DNA from: a virus
Reading direction: 5' to 3' (one strand)
Virus record (IMG/VR): IMGVR_UViG_3300033144_002037
Location: 1 to 47,233 of that record
Length of the DNA: 47,233 bases
The notes below the pieces were generated by a model, which did no database searches, was not told where the DNA came from, and saw only the letters and a list, made by a program, of their open reading frames with translations. The first letter of the stretch is position 1. The number at the start of each line of letters is the position of its first letter. Below, piece after piece: positions 28,925-47,233 of this stretch. The position numbers and the translations under genes were made by a program.

Positions 28925-29228
28925 AACAACCTTCATCGGCATCAGTATCGGTAGCTTCATCGGTAGCTTCATCTTTTTCCCATACAGCCTTATACCGCTT
29001 TCGCTCATCTATAAACCAAATCTCACCCTCAGGAACCTCGTCCGAAGCGATAACAGGTATCTTGTCCCGAGTTGCGGGATTCGAGTTAAGATGTCTCGCC
29101 CTCGCATCATCCATAAACACTGTGTCAAGAAGCTCAAGAGTAGAAGAACGTTGCTTCTCAAGAAGGACGACTCGACGATTAAGGTTTTCTATCATATCAA
29201 GTAGTTGGTCAAATCTTCTTTCAGCCAT
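28896..29228 (-). CDS. Small coiled-coil acidic protein at the end of the leftward block
   Basis: A 110-aa protein, last gene of the leftward block. Residues 5-33 form a short coiled coil (FDQLLDMIENLNRRVVLLEK); the C terminus is very acidic and Asp/Glu/Ser/Thr-rich. AAGGAG lies 9 nt upstream, and the ATG is in a TAATG junction with the helicase-like gene. Function unknown. Confidence 0.55.
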   Translation of the reverse strand: MAERRFDQLLDMIENLNRRVVLLEKQRSSTLELLDTVFMDDARARHLNSNPATRDKIPVIASDEVPEGEIWFIDERKRYKAVWEKDEATDEATDTDADEGCSTSPEDSSE

Positions 29229-30541: not shown

Positions 30542-30773
30542 GGGATAAGCCCTCCTCTGAGTCTATCGCAATGAGCCTACGTGTTGGGGTACAAGTAATT
30601 GATACTCGGGCCTTCCCAAGGAAGTCCTCAACATCAAAGTGAGGACACCACTCACCACACTGGACAGATTGAGGAGCGAATGGACAATATAAATGCTGGA
30701 AGTATTCAGGGTTAGTAAATTGTGCTCGCCTTATAAATACTTGTGAGCTGGTGGTTGTAAGTTTATACTTCAT
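30531..30773 (-). CDS. Small Cys-containing protein between polymerase and helicase genes
   Basis: An 80-aa protein with AAGGAG 8 nt upstream and an ATGA junction with the polymerase stop. It contains five Cys, among them YCPF, QCGEWCPH and ITCTP, near residues 30-60, a possible metal site. The 3' end overlaps the TTG start of the helicase-like gene by 11 nt. A replication accessory role is suggested only by position. Confidence 0.55.
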   Translation of the reverse strand: MKYKLTTTSSQVFIRRAQFTNPEYFQHLYCPFAPQSVQCGEWCPHFDVEDFLGKARVSITCTPTRRLIAIDSEEGLSLGS

Positions 30774-33286
30774 TGGTAATCTCCTTTGATCTCCTTTAGC
30801 TCTCCCCAATTTGGACCAGTCTTGAAGTCACAGGGGATGGTGAGACTTCGACCATGAATGATTAGTGGACGTTCCATAGCTGAGCGAATGTCAATGATCG
30901 CTCGTGGAATGTCCTCGGGTTTAAGTTGAACAATAACTTCATCATGAATGTTGAGGAGTAGTTCCACGTATGGGAGCCGAGTATGGATTTCCTGTGCAGC
31001 GTCTTGGAGGATTCGCCCAACAGTATTCTGAGGTGAGAAGGCATAGAACGCTCGGTAGGTGTCATCATTGAGTCGAGCCTGACAGAGTCTCTTGTCACCA
31101 ATCGAGGAGATCAGGTATCGGTCAGCCTGGAGCTTCTCACGAATCTTACGCTTCCACTCTGCGAGCATTGGGTCTTTAGACTTAGCACCGGCAAGGATGT
31201 CTCGACAGGTCGAGAAGGGTAAATGGAAGCCAAAGCTGATTAGACTTGCTTGGAACTTATAAGGTCCCTCGTCATAGTTGGTTGCGTGTCGAGTAGTCTT
31301 ACTTAAGTCTCGGTACTCTTTATGAGTATGCTCAACACTTGTATATCTATCAGTAAAAGTTCCATCTTTAGCTAAATATTTAGTATCTTTAGGTATATCA
31401 AAAATATCCTTGGCATATTCCCAGTGAACATCAAGAGACCCATCAAGGAACAACTCGATCTTGGCGAGGTCCTCTGCTTCCCAGGCTACCACCATAGCCT
31501 CAGCTTGTCGAAGATCCGAGGCAAGGAAGACCATACCTTCGTCTGCAATGAATAGCTTCCTAACCATCCGACCCTCCTCAGAGCGCACGGGGATATTTTG
31601 GAGGTTACTTCCTGCCTGCTTCTTCTTATCAAAATCGAAGACGAACGGAGAACCCGACGAGTTAGTACGCCAAGTTGAAACCCACCCATACGCAGTCCGA
31701 ACTCGTCCATCTGTGTCTATTTGCATAGCGGTATAGGTTTGCGAGAGCTTGGCAAACTTTTGGTAGTCGATGATGTGCTTAACTATCTCACCCTGGAAGG
31801 CCGTCGGTGGATACTCTTTGTGGAGCTTCTGCAGAGCTTCTTTGTCAGTAGTAACCTTGTGGGTGTCACGACTGTAGTGAAGTTTGAGACCGAGATAACC
31901 GTAAAGAAGTCTCGACTTTTGATCAGTTGAGTTAAGGTTATAGACTCCCTCACATTTGAGATTAACTTGTTCTTGGTGGAACCGTGACTTATGGAGAAAG
32001 TCTGTGGCCAAATGCTCTTTGGCATTAACATTAATCTTCACCCCACGGAGAGTCATAGCAAGATGCGCAGGGAACACAGAGAGCGTACGTTCGTAATTCT
32101 GAGAGGTGCCGAGTTCTCGCCCATCACGCCTGATAATAGGGAGAACTTCTTTAGTCACACAGCAATCCCGCCCGTTATAGACTCCCTCAGCGTTGTCAGA
32201 CGACCGCTTCCCGAAGTGAACCTTACCATCGTCCTTATAGTACGGCTCCCACGTGTAGATAGACGCAAGGTTAGCAAGTCCCATATTGATGTAGGGATAG
32301 TTTGATTGGTGAGCCCACATGGTGTCCTCGAAGGTACCGGGGGCAAGGCGTAGGCCATAGTAACGACCGAGAACAGCTAAGTCATACCCTCCATTCTGGA
32401 ATATCTTCTTAGCAGGACAGAGAAAATACTGAGAGATTGCGACAAGTATCTTCGCGTGAAGGTTCTCTGGCCAGGCAAATCCACCTCCACGGATAAAGTA
32501 AATAGTATGGGAGATCTCTGGTGATGGAGAGAACCCTATCATCCAAACGATGGGACCAGTGACATCAGGGAGAGTCTCGATATCGACAGAACAGTCAGTA
32601 GAGTTTCGTGTGAACTGCTCAAGAGTCTGTATTGTTTGCTCGAATGACATATTGATCTCGAAGGTACGAGGCGGTCGGTGGAACTCACGGGAATGAGATT
32701 GCTCAAGCACTCGGTCAAGATCAAGAAGAAAGGTAGGTAGAAGGTTGAGCGCTCGCTTCTTTTTCTCACCAGTAAGCTTACGCTCTCGCATCTCCTGCTG
32801 TGACCGATTAACGGCTGAGGGATGATTCATCGGATACACTTTGAACCCCTCGACGAGAGTACAGGGTAAGACACTCCCTCGCCATTTGGTAATCCTCGAC
32901 CGACCAGTTAACGCACGGAGTGCTGTGGCACCCAAGGCGACGATCACATTGACTGACGAGGACTCATAGAGTGAGGTAAGCCGCTGCCTAAGCATCTCGA
33001 TGTGTTCCTCACCCTCCCAGGTAAGAAACTTATTCGACTTGTCACGGAAGAAATACCCTATGTTGTTCTTAGGTGGTCTCTGACAGAATACATTGTCGAG
33101 AATCACATCAGAGGTAATGATAGATTTTTGGGAAAAGCACCGCTTGAGAAGTTGACCAGCAGAGCCGATAAACGGACGACCTTCAAAGTCTTCTTCTTCA
33201 CCAGGTGCTTCACCCACGAAGCAGATACGGGAGGTATAGTCGCCCTCAGGTTGGACTATGTTAGTAGTAAGTCTATCGAGATTCAC
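30770..33286 (-). CDS. Uracil-DNA-glycosylase/DNA polymerase I fusion
   Basis: An 838-aa protein from a GTG start (GGAG 5 nt upstream; GTGA overlap with the upstream gene). Residues 20-195: family-4-like uracil-DNA glycosylase, with GEAPGEEEDFEGRPF (25-39), NVFCQRPP (65-72) and MNHPSAV (153-159). Only one of the four iron-sulfur Cys of that family remains (Cys68). Residues 230-380: 3'-5' exonuclease with DIE (235-237), NGGYD (298-302) and YNGRD (370-374). Residues 395-838: family A polymerase with motif A SDLRQAEA (Asp591), motif B RDLSKTTRHATNYDEG, and motif C IHDE (780-783). It replicates the phage genome; the fused glycosylase domain may guard against uracil. Whether that domain still cuts is unknown. 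Confidence 0.88.
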   Translation of the reverse strand: MNLDRLTTNIVQPEGDYTSRICFVGEAPGEEEDFEGRPFIGSAGQLLKRCFSQKSIITSDVILDNVFCQRPPKNNIGYFFRDKSNKFLTWEGEEHIEMLRQRLTSLYESSSVNVIVALGATALRALTGRSRITKWRGSVLPCTLVEGFKVYPMNHPSAVNRSQQEMRERKLTGEKKKRALNLLPTFLLDLDRVLEQSHSREFHRPPRTFEINMSFEQTIQTLEQFTRNSTDCSVDIETLPDVTGPIVWMIGFSPSPEISHTIYFIRGGGFAWPENLHAKILVAISQYFLCPAKKIFQNGGYDLAVLGRYYGLRLAPGTFEDTMWAHQSNYPYINMGLANLASIYTWEPYYKDDGKVHFGKRSSDNAEGVYNGRDCCVTKEVLPIIRRDGRELGTSQNYERTLSVFPAHLAMTLRGVKINVNAKEHLATDFLHKSRFHQEQVNLKCEGVYNLNSTDQKSRLLYGYLGLKLHYSRDTHKVTTDKEALQKLHKEYPPTAFQGEIVKHIIDYQKFAKLSQTYTAMQIDTDGRVRTAYGWVSTWRTNSSGSPFVFDFDKKKQAGSNLQNIPVRSEEGRMVRKLFIADEGMVFLASDLRQAEAMVVAWEAEDLAKIELFLDGSLDVHWEYAKDIFDIPKDTKYLAKDGTFTDRYTSVEHTHKEYRDLSKTTRHATNYDEGPYKFQASLISFGFHLPFSTCRDILAGAKSKDPMLAEWKRKIREKLQADRYLISSIGDKRLCQARLNDDTYRAFYAFSPQNTVGRILQDAAQEIHTRLPYVELLLNIHDEVIVQLKPEDIPRAIIDIRSAMERPLIIHGRSLTIPCDFKTGPNWGELKEIKGDYQ

Positions 33287-33504
33287 AATAACTCCTTTCC
33301 TGCTTGAATAACTGCCGGGTCTATGTGCAGAATACCATCTTCTGTTACAAATCCAGTAGTAAAGCAACGTCTGCTTGTGATTTTAACTTCAACTATATTT
33401 ATTGGATAGGTTCTACCCTCAAAGGTATAATTAATTCCACTCATACTTTTCAGAACAACACGCTTGATTAACCTTCGATGCTCCTCGATTGTGGATATCT
33501 CCAT
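33283..33504 (-). CDS. Small protein upstream of the polymerase
   Basis: A 73-aa protein. The ATG at 33504 has AAGGA 8 nt upstream; an ATG nine codons earlier lies within the palindrome. It is beta-rich with MSGINYTFEGRTYPINIVEV in the middle; no Cys cluster. The stop overlaps the polymerase GTG (GTGA), so expression is coupled. Function unknown. Confidence 0.55.
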   Translation of the reverse strand: MEISTIEEHRRLIKRVVLKSMSGINYTFEGRTYPINIVEVKITSRRCFTTGFVTEDGILHIDPAVIQAGKELL

Positions 33505-33549: not shown

Positions 33550-35124
33550 TTATTCGGCTTCGCCACTCCTTAATGACGTCTGCCACTTAAGCATTTCTTT
33601 CTGGTCCTCCGGGTGTGCCCGCCAATAGCTCATCCATTCAGGGCTCCCAGGAATAGTAGAGTGGAAGTCCTCAGCAACTTCTGGTATGTCTCTAACCATC
33701 TGGCCTTCCGAAGAGTTATCACCCAAGACTCCATGATAGCCAAGCTGCAGGTTCCACAGTTGAGTAACAAGGTAATCTTCATCCTCGTCAATCTGATACC
33801 AACTCAAGGCGAGAGCCTTACGTAGTGACTCCGCAGCTACTGCGAACATACCGGAGCCAGCCATTGGGTCGAGAACCTTGTCACCTGGAGCACACGAACG
33901 GATGAATAGATCACGATAAATGTCTGGGTGCTTCGCGGAGGGATGGTTAAGTTTCATCTTCGGAGTGGGGACTGGAGTAGTAACAATGTCTGGGATACCG
34001 AATTTGGCAAGAGGTTTGGAGCCCTTCCGTGCATATGCTATGGATTCGTAGGATCGTCCTGGCCAGACTTCGGGGGCTCGGGTGCGGTGGGAACCCTTCT
34101 TGTGCCAGAAGATGGGCATTCGGTTGGTAGTGAAGCCTGCCCCATCAAGGGCTGAGTAAATAAGCTCGTGATATACGATTCCAAAGAAGAGATAAAGATG
34201 TGAGTCTTCGGACATGATAGCATAGAGGGACTTAAGCCAGGCGGGAAGTAAATCTTTAATCTTTTCTGGGTCGTCTTTATAAGATTTAGTTGTTCCAGTT
34301 TCTTTTGATACGACATCGAGTGCCACTCCCCAGGGTGGGTCAAAGCATACCACGTCAAAACTGTCAACCGGAAGATCCTCGAGTGAATCCTCCATCGTGC
34401 CAAGTATGCATCGGTTGTTATACTCAAGAATCCGACGTTGTTGATCAGACTGTGGTGCTCGTATCTCAGGCAGTGGGTCTCCATTCTCATCAACAGAAGT
34501 AACCTCAATCTGAGTCTCCTCAGCCTCTTTAATTGCATCATCGAGTGCCTCCTCTCTGGAGATTTCATCCTCTATCCTTTGGATAATCTTTCGAGCAGTG
34601 GTACGATTAGGCGCAGACGCAACCTCCGGAATCTCACGGGCGTACATAGCAATTTTAATATCGTCTTGAACACCACCGACTGAAAGGTGGAGTTCGTTAG
34701 CTGTATCACGTACACCATGCCCACCTGCGGCACCTGGACTTGTAGTGCCTCTCTCCTTTTGTCGGAGCTCATGTAGATGGAGGATAGCTTCACACTTGTC
34801 TTTGAAGTTAAGGTCTTCTCGTCGAATATTTTCGATAAGCTCGATTTCGTACAGGTCAACTTCATTAGTTACATCCTCCTTAAGGGTGTAAGAGAACTCT
34901 ATACCAAGCTCTCGACAAGCGGTAAGTCGACCTTCGCCAAAGATGAGAACGAGTGAATTGTCCTCTGGGTCATGACGACACAACCCTGGCTGGAGTTGAC
35001 CATAGTTAGCTATCGAGAACTTGAACTCTTCAAAAGATTTGCGATTTCTCGCGGTTTTGCGTTGACGATCTTGAACGATGATTTCTTCAGGGAGTGATTT
35101 GTATACCTGTGTTACCTCTCTCAT
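33550..35124 (-). CDS. ParB-HTH-DNA methyltransferase fusion
   Basis: A 524-aa protein. Residues about 1-110: ParB/Srx-type domain with GQLQPGLCR, GEGRLTACRELG (63-74, in place of the ParB GERR box) and IELIENIRRED (95-105). Residues 137-160: helix-turn-helix of ParB style (VRDTANELHLSVGGVQDDI). Residues 240-450: DNA methyltransferase with catalytic DPPW (262-265) followed by the AdoMet motif DPMAGSG (419-425), the beta-class order of N6-adenine or N4-cytosine enzymes. Related ParB-methylase proteins occur in phages and protect DNA or mark sites. The target is unknown. GGAG lies 8 nt upstream. Confidence 0.82.
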   Translation of the reverse strand: MREVTQVYKSLPEEIIVQDRQRKTARNRKSFEEFKFSIANYGQLQPGLCRHDPEDNSLVLIFGEGRLTACRELGIEFSYTLKEDVTNEVDLYEIELIENIRREDLNFKDKCEAILHLHELRQKERGTTSPGAAGGHGVRDTANELHLSVGGVQDDIKIAMYAREIPEVASAPNRTTARKIIQRIEDEISREEALDDAIKEAEETQIEVTSVDENGDPLPEIRAPQSDQQRRILEYNNRCILGTMEDSLEDLPVDSFDVVCFDPPWGVALDVVSKETGTTKSYKDDPEKIKDLLPAWLKSLYAIMSEDSHLYLFFGIVYHELIYSALDGAGFTTNRMPIFWHKKGSHRTRAPEVWPGRSYESIAYARKGSKPLAKFGIPDIVTTPVPTPKMKLNHPSAKHPDIYRDLFIRSCAPGDKVLDPMAGSGMFAVAAESLRKALALSWYQIDEDEDYLVTQLWNLQLGYHGVLGDNSSEGQMVRDIPEVAEDFHSTIPGSPEWMSYWRAHPEDQKEMLKWQTSLRSGEAE

Positions 35125-41790: not shown

Positions 41791-42021
41791 TTAGATTCCT
41801 TTAACCTCGGTTGTTACATAGCAAACTATTACCCAGGGTGTATCACCATAGGTACTTTTATCTACTTGATCGGTACTTCTCGCGAGTTCAAGTTGATGAA
41901 TAGCATCTTCTAAAGTATTGGTTGTAGGACCAAAAGTAGATGAACCCATGCCACCTTCTTCATTCCAGAACGCCTCCACCTGGAAGCTGATAATATAGGT
42001 TGCTTTCTTAGTTAGCTTCAT
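41791..42021 (-). CDS. Small early protein
   Basis: A 76-aa protein with AAAAAGGAGAAG upstream, matching the anti-Shine-Dalgarno loop of the RNA candidate at 42196-42393 over about 12 nt. Beta-rich start (KATYIISFQVEAFW), then acidic helix, then strands. Function unknown. Its start overlaps the preceding gene by 14 nt. Confidence 0.55.
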   Translation of the reverse strand: MKLTKKATYIISFQVEAFWNEEGGMGSSTFGPTTNTLEDAIHQLELARSTDQVDKSTYGDTPWVIVCYVTTEVKGI

Positions 42022-42172
42022 TGATCTTCTCCTTTTTCACGTAATCATTAACTATGACTTTGATTATATCTCGGGGCTTCGAGAATCCCATTCCCAAAGA
42101 CTTTGCTACTGCTTTGAGTTTGAGATAATCTTCCACAAATATATAGATTTGTTTTGATGGGCCAGTTTTCAT
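42008..42172 (-). CDS. Ribbon-helix-helix-like mini protein
   Basis: A 54-aa protein, ATG at 42172 with AAGGA 6 nt upstream. KQIYIFVEDYLKLKAVAKSL, then KPRDIIKVIVNDYV has the strand-helix-helix layout of CopG/Arc-type regulators. It is the first gene after the structured RNA region, so it could regulate, or be regulated by, that element. It could also read the dispersed palindrome. Assignment by pattern only. Confidence 0.55.
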   Translation of the reverse strand: MKTGPSKQIYIFVEDYLKLKAVAKSLGMGFSKPRDIIKVIVNDYVKKEKINEAN

Positions 42173-42195
42173 AGCTTTTCCTTTCTATGTGATTA

Positions 42196-42393
42196 GCTGA
42201 CCCCGAGCGGACCGTTCGAAGTTTCACTCAGGGCCAGCCTTACGCCCCGGCAAGGGACGATGGTTAGCGGGGAAAGCCTGTTGCCCAGGGTAGTCAAAAA
42301 GGAGAAAAGCTACCCACAGACTCCCCCCGCCGAGATAACCGTTTCTCACCTTCCTCCGGTGTCATTCCGGCAGTCATTCACTGGCGTTATCTC
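42196..42393 (-). ncRNA. Highly structured RNA candidate with anti-Shine-Dalgarno loop
   Basis: A roughly 200-nt intergenic block, distinctly GC-rich. On the leftward strand, helices are: GTTATCTC/GAGATAAC (42386-42393 with 42332-42339); CCCCGC/GCGGGG (42325-42330 with 42267-42272); 7 bp at 42316-42322 with 42275-42281; GGGTAG/CTACCC (42310-42315 with 42288-42293) closing a 16-nt loop 42294-42309 that reads CTTTTCTCCTTTTTGA; a 6-bp hairpin 42243-42259; and a 12-bp helix 42196-42207 with 42227-42238. GGTTA in the 42336-42340 segment can instead pair with 42262-42266, so two folds compete. Loop CUUUUCUCCUUUUU is complementary to this phage's AAAAGGAGAA ribosome sites. Family unknown; strand inferred from the operon. 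Confidence 0.55.
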
Positions 42394-42610
42394 TCGATTG
42401 GTTCGTGCGTTGAACCGATACTGCGAATGATTTTAAGTAGTCGAGAGCGGGCAATGTACGTCTTTGGGTGCGGTACATATCAAGGAACCGTCTGACAACC
42501 GCCGAGTCGGCACGGTAAACGTAGCCGATACTCCGAATATTTACTCGGACTTCCGAGATTCCTTGAAGATGTGCTACAGATTCGACGAGGTACCATTTTG
42601 AGTTTCTCAT
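42374..42610 (-). CDS. Small KTSF-like protein
   Basis: A 78-aa protein from ATG 42610 (GGAG 9 nt upstream). SKWYLVESVAHLQGISEVRV, then YRADSAVVRRFLDM loosely follows the KTSF-type pattern of short phage proteins. Its 3' end runs through the palindrome at 42400-42416 and the first stem of the RNA candidate. Function unknown. Confidence 0.5.
   Translation of the reverse strand: MRNSKWYLVESVAHLQGISEVRVNIRSIGYVYRADSAVVRRFLDMYRTQRRTLPALDYLKSFAVSVQRTNQSRDNASE
42400..42416. promoter_or_regulatory. Dispersed palindrome beside the RNA candidate
   Basis: GGTTCGTGCGTTGAACC, with CTCGATT and GATACTG flanks, a few nt from the first stem of the structured RNA. Confidence 0.65.
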
Positions 42611-42677
42611 ATTATTACTCTCCAAAAAATAAGGAGAGCAGCCAGGGCTACTCCCCATATCATCTCTTCCCAATCCT

Positions 42678-42977
42678 TCATGACTTGGCCACCAATTCCT
42701 CACGAACAAGAGCTGCGAGTTCTTCAGTGGATATGTTAAATTCCTTTGCGAGTGCGACGAGTTCAGACTCGGGTTCAGGTGGCGTCTCGTGCTTAACCAA
42801 GCCCCACTTGTACCAGTAATCTCGCTCGTCATGATCGAATTGTTTAACTTCGACCCAGAGCTTCTCCTCGAGTTGTCCGAGTTCTTGTTGTAGGTCGAAG
42901 ATTTTATACTTCACGATCTTGAGTTGGTTCTTGCGTCGGGCCAGGTGGAGGTATTCCATGAATTGCTCGGTGTTCAT
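42678..42977 (-). CDS. Coiled-coil early protein
   Basis: A 99-aa protein. Residues about 15-50 are coiled (IVKYKIFDLQQELGQLEEKL); a Trp/Tyr-rich centre and a helical end (FNISTEELAALVREEL) follow. ATGA overlap with the upstream gene. The end motif resembles that of 35121-35366 (LTPEELSALI). Unknown function. Confidence 0.55.
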   Translation of the reverse strand: MNTEQFMEYLHLARRKNQLKIVKYKIFDLQQELGQLEEKLWVEVKQFDHDERDYWYKWGLVKHETPPEPESELVALAKEFNISTEELAALVREELVAKS

Positions 42978-47086: not shown

Positions 47087-47233
47087 GATTTTTGTGAACT
47101 TTGCCCTACGTAAGAAACCCTACATTGAGAGGGGATAGTGTTATCTCTGGAGGCGGGTGTGGGTGTTATCTCTGGAGGTCGGTATTATCTCTGGAAGTGG
47201 GTATTATCTCTGGAGGTGGATGTTATCTCTGGT
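47087..47233. repeat. Terminal direct repeat, right copy, with 19-bp iterons
   Basis: This matches the window start as described for the left copy, then carries five copies of TTATCTCTGG at 47141, 47166, 47185, 47204 and 47223. The last four are spaced exactly 19 bp apart. The left end has two copies (69-78 and 116-125). Regular short direct repeats like these are typical of initiator-protein iterons or of packaging and termination sites. Which applies is not determined. Confidence 0.75.

Follow-up and report, generated by a model that had tools for sequence, protein, structure and literature searches.

A structured RNA element with an anti-Shine-Dalgarno-like loop in the leftward gene arm of an uncultivated phage

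Leader regions of mRNAs can act in cis by masking a ribosome-binding site with an upstream anti-Shine-Dalgarno (anti-SD) sequence. Trans-acting small RNAs of Gram-positive bacteria, such as RNAIII of Staphylococcus aureus, target SD sequences with pyrimidine-rich loops, and the autoregulatory leaders of ribosomal-protein genes can mimic rRNA. In the present work, we describe a structured non-coding RNA element located at 42196-42393 on the leftward (-) strand of a phage genome, identified from its minimum free energy, codon usage and G-U pairs, and we compare it with these three systems.

The window, meaning the whole 47,233-bp stretch analysed, is IMG/VR virus record IMGVR_UViG_3300033144_002037, and the phage is known from environmental DNA alone. 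The first ~130 bases of the window are repeated at its end, so the record probably represents a complete, circularly permuted genome. The rightward genes include those for terminase, portal and major capsid protein. The leftward genes encode a primase/helicase, a uracil-DNA glycosylase domain fused to a family A DNA polymerase (30770-33367, -) and a single protein combining a ParB-N-like domain with a DNA methyltransferase domain (33550-35124, -). The element belongs to this leftward arm and lies in a packed operon of 'early genes', flanked by a 78-aa open reading frame (ORF) and a 54-aa gene. The upstream 78-aa ORF (42374-42610, -), whose 3' end crosses a palindrome and enters helix P1 of the element, is of uncertain coding status, its codon score of -0.10 being low, yet inside the small-gene range. 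Further upstream stands a terminator-like hairpin with a T-tract (42633-42656, -), a weak candidate given that one was found against 1.0 expected in shuffles. Downstream, the 54-aa gene (42008-42172, -) has the binding site AGAAAGGAAAAGCTATG, which can pair with the P2 loop described below; the second gene (41791-42021, -) has the binding site AAAAAGGAGAA, an 11-nt complement of the same loop. The 54-aa product had been proposed to be ribbon-helix-helix-like, a possibility that was not confirmed: PHROG and Pfam searches returned no match and the structure model, of low confidence, shows two helices and no strand.

A leftward-strand RNA fold more stable than expected by chance

Folded as RNA, the leftward strand of 42196-42393 reaches -89.5 kcal/mol against -72.3 +/- 5.1 kcal/mol in dinucleotide shuffles, a z of -3.4, and one shuffle out of 200 is as stable. 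The + strand of the same interval gives a z of -1.8, and in a sliding 198-nt scan the leftward-strand energy minimum of the window falls here, at 42151. These values bear out the multi-helix structure that the first-pass annotation had described on this strand, and its sequences lie where they had been placed.

The fold comprises P1 to P4, all on the leftward strand. P1 is an 8-bp closing helix (42386-42393/42332-42339), and the P1 domain (42332-42393) encloses two or three small competing hairpins. P2 (42267-42330) is predicted to be built of a 15-bp lower stem (42316-42330/42267-42281) and a 6-bp upper stem (42310-42315/42288-42293), with a 6-nt bulge on the 3' side, three internal G-U pairs and no mismatch; the upper stem closes a 16-nt anti-SD-like terminal loop, CTTTTCTCCTTTTTGA (42294-42309). 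P3 is a 6-bp hairpin, CGTCCC/GGGGCG (42254-42259/42243-42248, spanning 42243-42259), and P4 a 14-bp hairpin (42226-42239/42196-42209, spanning 42196-42239) whose end lies 23 nt upstream of the start codon of the 54-aa gene. Several helices are thus present as annotated, but the lengths of 5-12 bp first attributed to them were slightly off, the stems reaching 14 and 15 bp. A second annotated hairpin, with a GGAGGAA loop, can form on a CACC/GGTG stem, but only in place of the CCGG/CCGG hairpin that, along with CAGT/ACTG, occupies the P1 domain in the predicted fold. A kissing interaction of this GGAGGAA loop with the P2 loop was not significant, 43 of 500 shuffles being as good.

In the predicted ensemble P2, P3 and P4 are near-certain and the P2 loop is unpaired. 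P1 holds when the element is folded in isolation and is lost in folds taking in the downstream gene, where 42380-42393 pairs with that gene. As a specific switch, this long-range alternative finds no support: P1 is lost to a comparable degree in 12 of 100 controls with a shuffled downstream sequence. The switch originally put forward, between 42332-42340 and 42262-42266, fares no better: five complementary bases exist, and the pairing has an ensemble probability of about 0.001 and costs about 4 kcal/mol. Two comparably stable, mutually exclusive folds were looked for in the predicted ensemble and not encountered. There is consequently only a slender chance that the element is a riboswitch-like sensor alternating P1 with another pairing. 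Both the GGUUA/UAACC pairing and that of 42380-42393 with the downstream gene do exist, but the former has so low a probability, the latter so many equivalents among shuffled sequences, and neither an Rfam match up to E 10 nor homologues displaying a conserved core accompany them.

The molecule of interest is the leftward-strand RNA. All nine non-Watson-Crick pairs of the fold are G-U and 1x1 mismatches are entirely absent, which favours a leftward-strand RNA over a DNA cruciform. With DNA parameters the fold has z values of -2.1 (same strand) and -1.8, both weaker than the RNA value. A role at the DNA level, as an origin, a single-strand initiation site or a protein-binding cruciform, could appeal to the dispersed palindrome adjoining the element and to GTTATCTC, shared by the P1 arms and the G-rich tandem repeats that lie at the ends of the genome. 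It is nevertheless very improbable in view of these DNA-fold values and of the G-U pairs, every one of which would become A-C on the other strand. In none of the three leftward frames does the element have coding-like codon usage (scores <= -0.22). A 41-codon ORF inside it (42224-42349) scores -0.03, between true small genes and off-frame controls.

Complementarity of the P2 loop to ribosome-binding sites

Exactly six copies of the phage SD consensus, AAAAGGAGAA, are present on the leftward strand, each at a ribosome-binding site; the P2 loop contains the seventh copy, inverted and exact. In duplex calculations a 19-nt loop segment was scored against 31 leftward binding sites, giving a mean energy of -13.4 kcal/mol. 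Random genome 19-mers reach -7.2 +/- 1.8 kcal/mol at these sites (0 of 400 as good as the loop) and shuffled loops -9.5 +/- 0.9 kcal/mol (0 of 200), so that the complementarity to the phage's own SD sites reported by the first-pass annotation holds beyond chance. A generic Bacillus-like 16S 3' tail was used as control; this tail, which may not be that of the host, yields -11.8 kcal/mol, a weaker mean than that of the loop. At rightward genes the loop averages -10.7 kcal/mol, a value equalled by 11 of 400 random 19-mers. The loop thus shows genuine complementarity, with a bias towards the leftward arm.

At the site of the 54-aa gene the loop duplex reaches -15.7 kcal/mol, compared with -10.2 for the generic 16S tail, and is matched by none of 400 random 19-mers and one of 200 shuffled loops. 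The site of the second downstream gene gives -16.8 against -14.1 kcal/mol with the same tail. The best partner is a distant gene starting at 29228 (-23.5 kcal/mol), and the site of the 54-aa gene ranks about 13th among all binding sites. Since many leftward sites fit the loop, and several distant genes fit it better, the adjacent operon is not a specific target of the pairing. Loop-site pairing is expressed here as duplex energies alone because the folding model cannot represent pseudoknots.

We tentatively favour, as a possible rather than a probable reading, a lineage-specific intercistronic cis leader in which the P2 loop masks the downstream binding sites. We infer that the structured non-coding RNA would be part of the leftward mRNA, placed between the 78-aa ORF and the 54-aa gene, and that P2-P4 would form a rigid block ending 23 nt ahead of the start codon. 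Exposed on P2, the 16-nt loop would pair in cis with the sites of the 54-aa gene and of the next gene, and this pairing would repress translation of both until ribosomes or another factor outcompete the loop. If the loop works in this manner, the phage would possess an RNA tuning initiation via its own SD consensus, a form of translational control open to testing in an uncultivated phage group.

The same complementarity could serve a discrete small RNA, either processed or transcribed from its own promoter, that would compete in trans for the SD sequences ahead of many leftward genes and so might, for instance, shut off early translation late in infection. We consider this unlikely. The complementarity does span the leftward genes (-13.4 versus -10.7 kcal/mol for the rightward ones) and exceeds that of the 16S tail, and the 5' end of the element adjoins the palindrome, a possible regulatory site. 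However, a scan of 41900-42900 for terminators and, among promoters, sigma-70-like ones gave only a rightward promoter match and the terminator upstream of the 78-aa ORF, and hence no leftward sigma-70-like promoter nearby. P4 is devoid of a U-tract and therefore provides no intrinsic terminator at the 3' end, and a distance of 23 nt to the next start codon suits a leader better. Distinctly unlikely is a broader trans function, in which the RNA loop would mimic the anti-SD end of the ribosome and control translation of the whole leftward gene set; the loop does match the phage SD consensus better than the generic 16S tail.

The long perfect stems (15 and 14 bp) located between two genes of a packed operon are also what would be expected of a processing or stability element, a reading that we hold to be somewhat unlikely. 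Its hairpins would be cut by a double-strand-specific RNase or would block exonucleases, setting the amounts of the mRNA pieces, and the loop sequence would be incidental; it leaves unexplained a complementarity that none of 200 shuffled loops attains.

Relatives, rRNA-like stretches and a dispersed palindrome

As annotated at first pass, the element matches no known family: Rfam 15 covariance models gave no gathering-score match across the window, and a relaxed search of 42100-42500 up to E 10 was also empty. No tRNA or tmRNA was detected, searches of phage, plasmid and E. coli DNA returned nothing beyond chance-level pieces, and no exact 18-mer of the element is present in the viral contigs searched. 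Related phages, amounting to ~2 Mb, were collected via capsid, polymerase and nuclease-like genes. Their capsid or polymerase is 45-73% identical, and gene order is kept across a large part of the genome, which includes the genes at 39.1-41.8 kb that adjoin the element. These relatives were scanned with DNA searches, with short-word BLAST and with a covariance model derived from the element, and no homologue was found; the sequence of the closest relative, G009 (59-62% in the polymerase and the 39.1-kb gene), stops short of the element region. Applied to 59 bacterial genomes, the same model had as its best match a hairpin-sized piece of 43 nt in one genome, near chance (E 7e-4). Hairpins with an anti-SD loop were sought in the relatives and none was convincing. 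A strongly folded region of G011 upstream of a shared gene was considered as a counterpart and proved to be coding. Another relative, G005 (50,823 bp; L132-L134), carries the polymerase gene at both contig ends with the same query match; several kb or more seem to be duplicated there, by assembly overlap or terminal redundancy.

As far as the data go, the element appears lineage-specific among the sequences compared. With no homologue among them, it is missed by family-based searches; its structure therefore has no covariation to draw on, which counts against the cis leader. Absence from every relative and selection as an extreme among many windows would also suit an element with no function, arising from chance inverted repeats or a decayed insert. 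We regard this as quite improbable, as the restriction of deviations to G-U pairs and the loop complementarity are independent signals. Whatever the loop does, the element is a clear single-genome structured RNA.

Within the P1 domain, a 31-nt stretch (42349-42379, -) resembles 16S rRNA 1155-1185 (helix 40) with 37.4 bits, at an E of 2e-6 for the element and 4e-4 for the whole window, each computed against one 16S. The likeness consists of exact blocks of 13 and 12 nt at the same spacing, with the loop altered, and none of 400 shuffles is as good. A further 25 nt of the element weakly resemble 23S 2440-2465 in E. coli numbering. When the helix-40-like stretch was compared with 289 bacterial genomes, the E 0.1 matches inspected were not 16S. 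We rejected rRNA mimicry and do not build upon it, because helix 40 differs here in its conserved loop and chance matches in large collections score alike.

A copy of a palindrome, GGTTCAWNNNWTGAACC (42391-42424), abuts the 5' end of the element. The dispersed palindrome CTCNATNGGTTCATNNNATGAACCNATNGAG, with core TTCA-N5-TGAA, has 16 sites in the window and none in shuffled sequence; they lie mostly at gene borders, at 197, 2049, 3164, 5196, 12077, 16645, 17314, 22182, 25691, 29250, 33521, 37128, 40121, 42396, 44122 and 46498. Under a strict test requiring the core and complementary neighbours, nine related records have 4-15 core sites each against 0-0.4 in shuffles. Core-bearing relatives include the near-identical G002/G003, G005-G009, G011, G024 and G034, and no sites were found in G017, G026 and G027, among others. 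The core is shared and the outer arms vary from phage to phage, and the palindromes resemble a set of operators for a phage DNA-binding protein, or partition-type sites, of drifting specificity. The ParB-N/methyltransferase protein is a candidate for their recognition. The dispersed layout is comparable to that of mycobacteriophage stoperators (PMC9283540, PMC6550527), but the palindrome here is symmetric. Between the divergent gene arms, the terminal direct repeat (47087-47233 and 1-130) contains a G-rich tandem array of GTTATCTCTGGAGGTGGG units and is a possible origin or regulatory region.

Comparison with described regulatory RNAs

Like ribosomal-protein leaders, the element contains an rRNA-like part, the 31 nt of the P1 domain that resemble 16S helix 40. 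It differs from them in that the conserved loop of this helix is altered and no ribosomal protein gene is nearby, and scores like that of the helix 40 match arise by chance in large databases. With RNAIII, the element appears to have in common a hairpin loop that is complementary to SD sequences in several mRNAs. Unlike RNAIII, its loop is U-rich with a single CUCC, it sits in a phage operon, and it has neither a promoter or terminator of its own that could be seen nor an Rfam match. Cis-acting SD-masking leaders differ from the element in that the pairing predicted here would have to span P3 and P4 as a long-range pseudoknot, and in that the loop fits many other genes; the element resembles these leaders in the position of its structure just 5' of a start codon and in its exposed pyrimidine loop complementary to the SD sequence.
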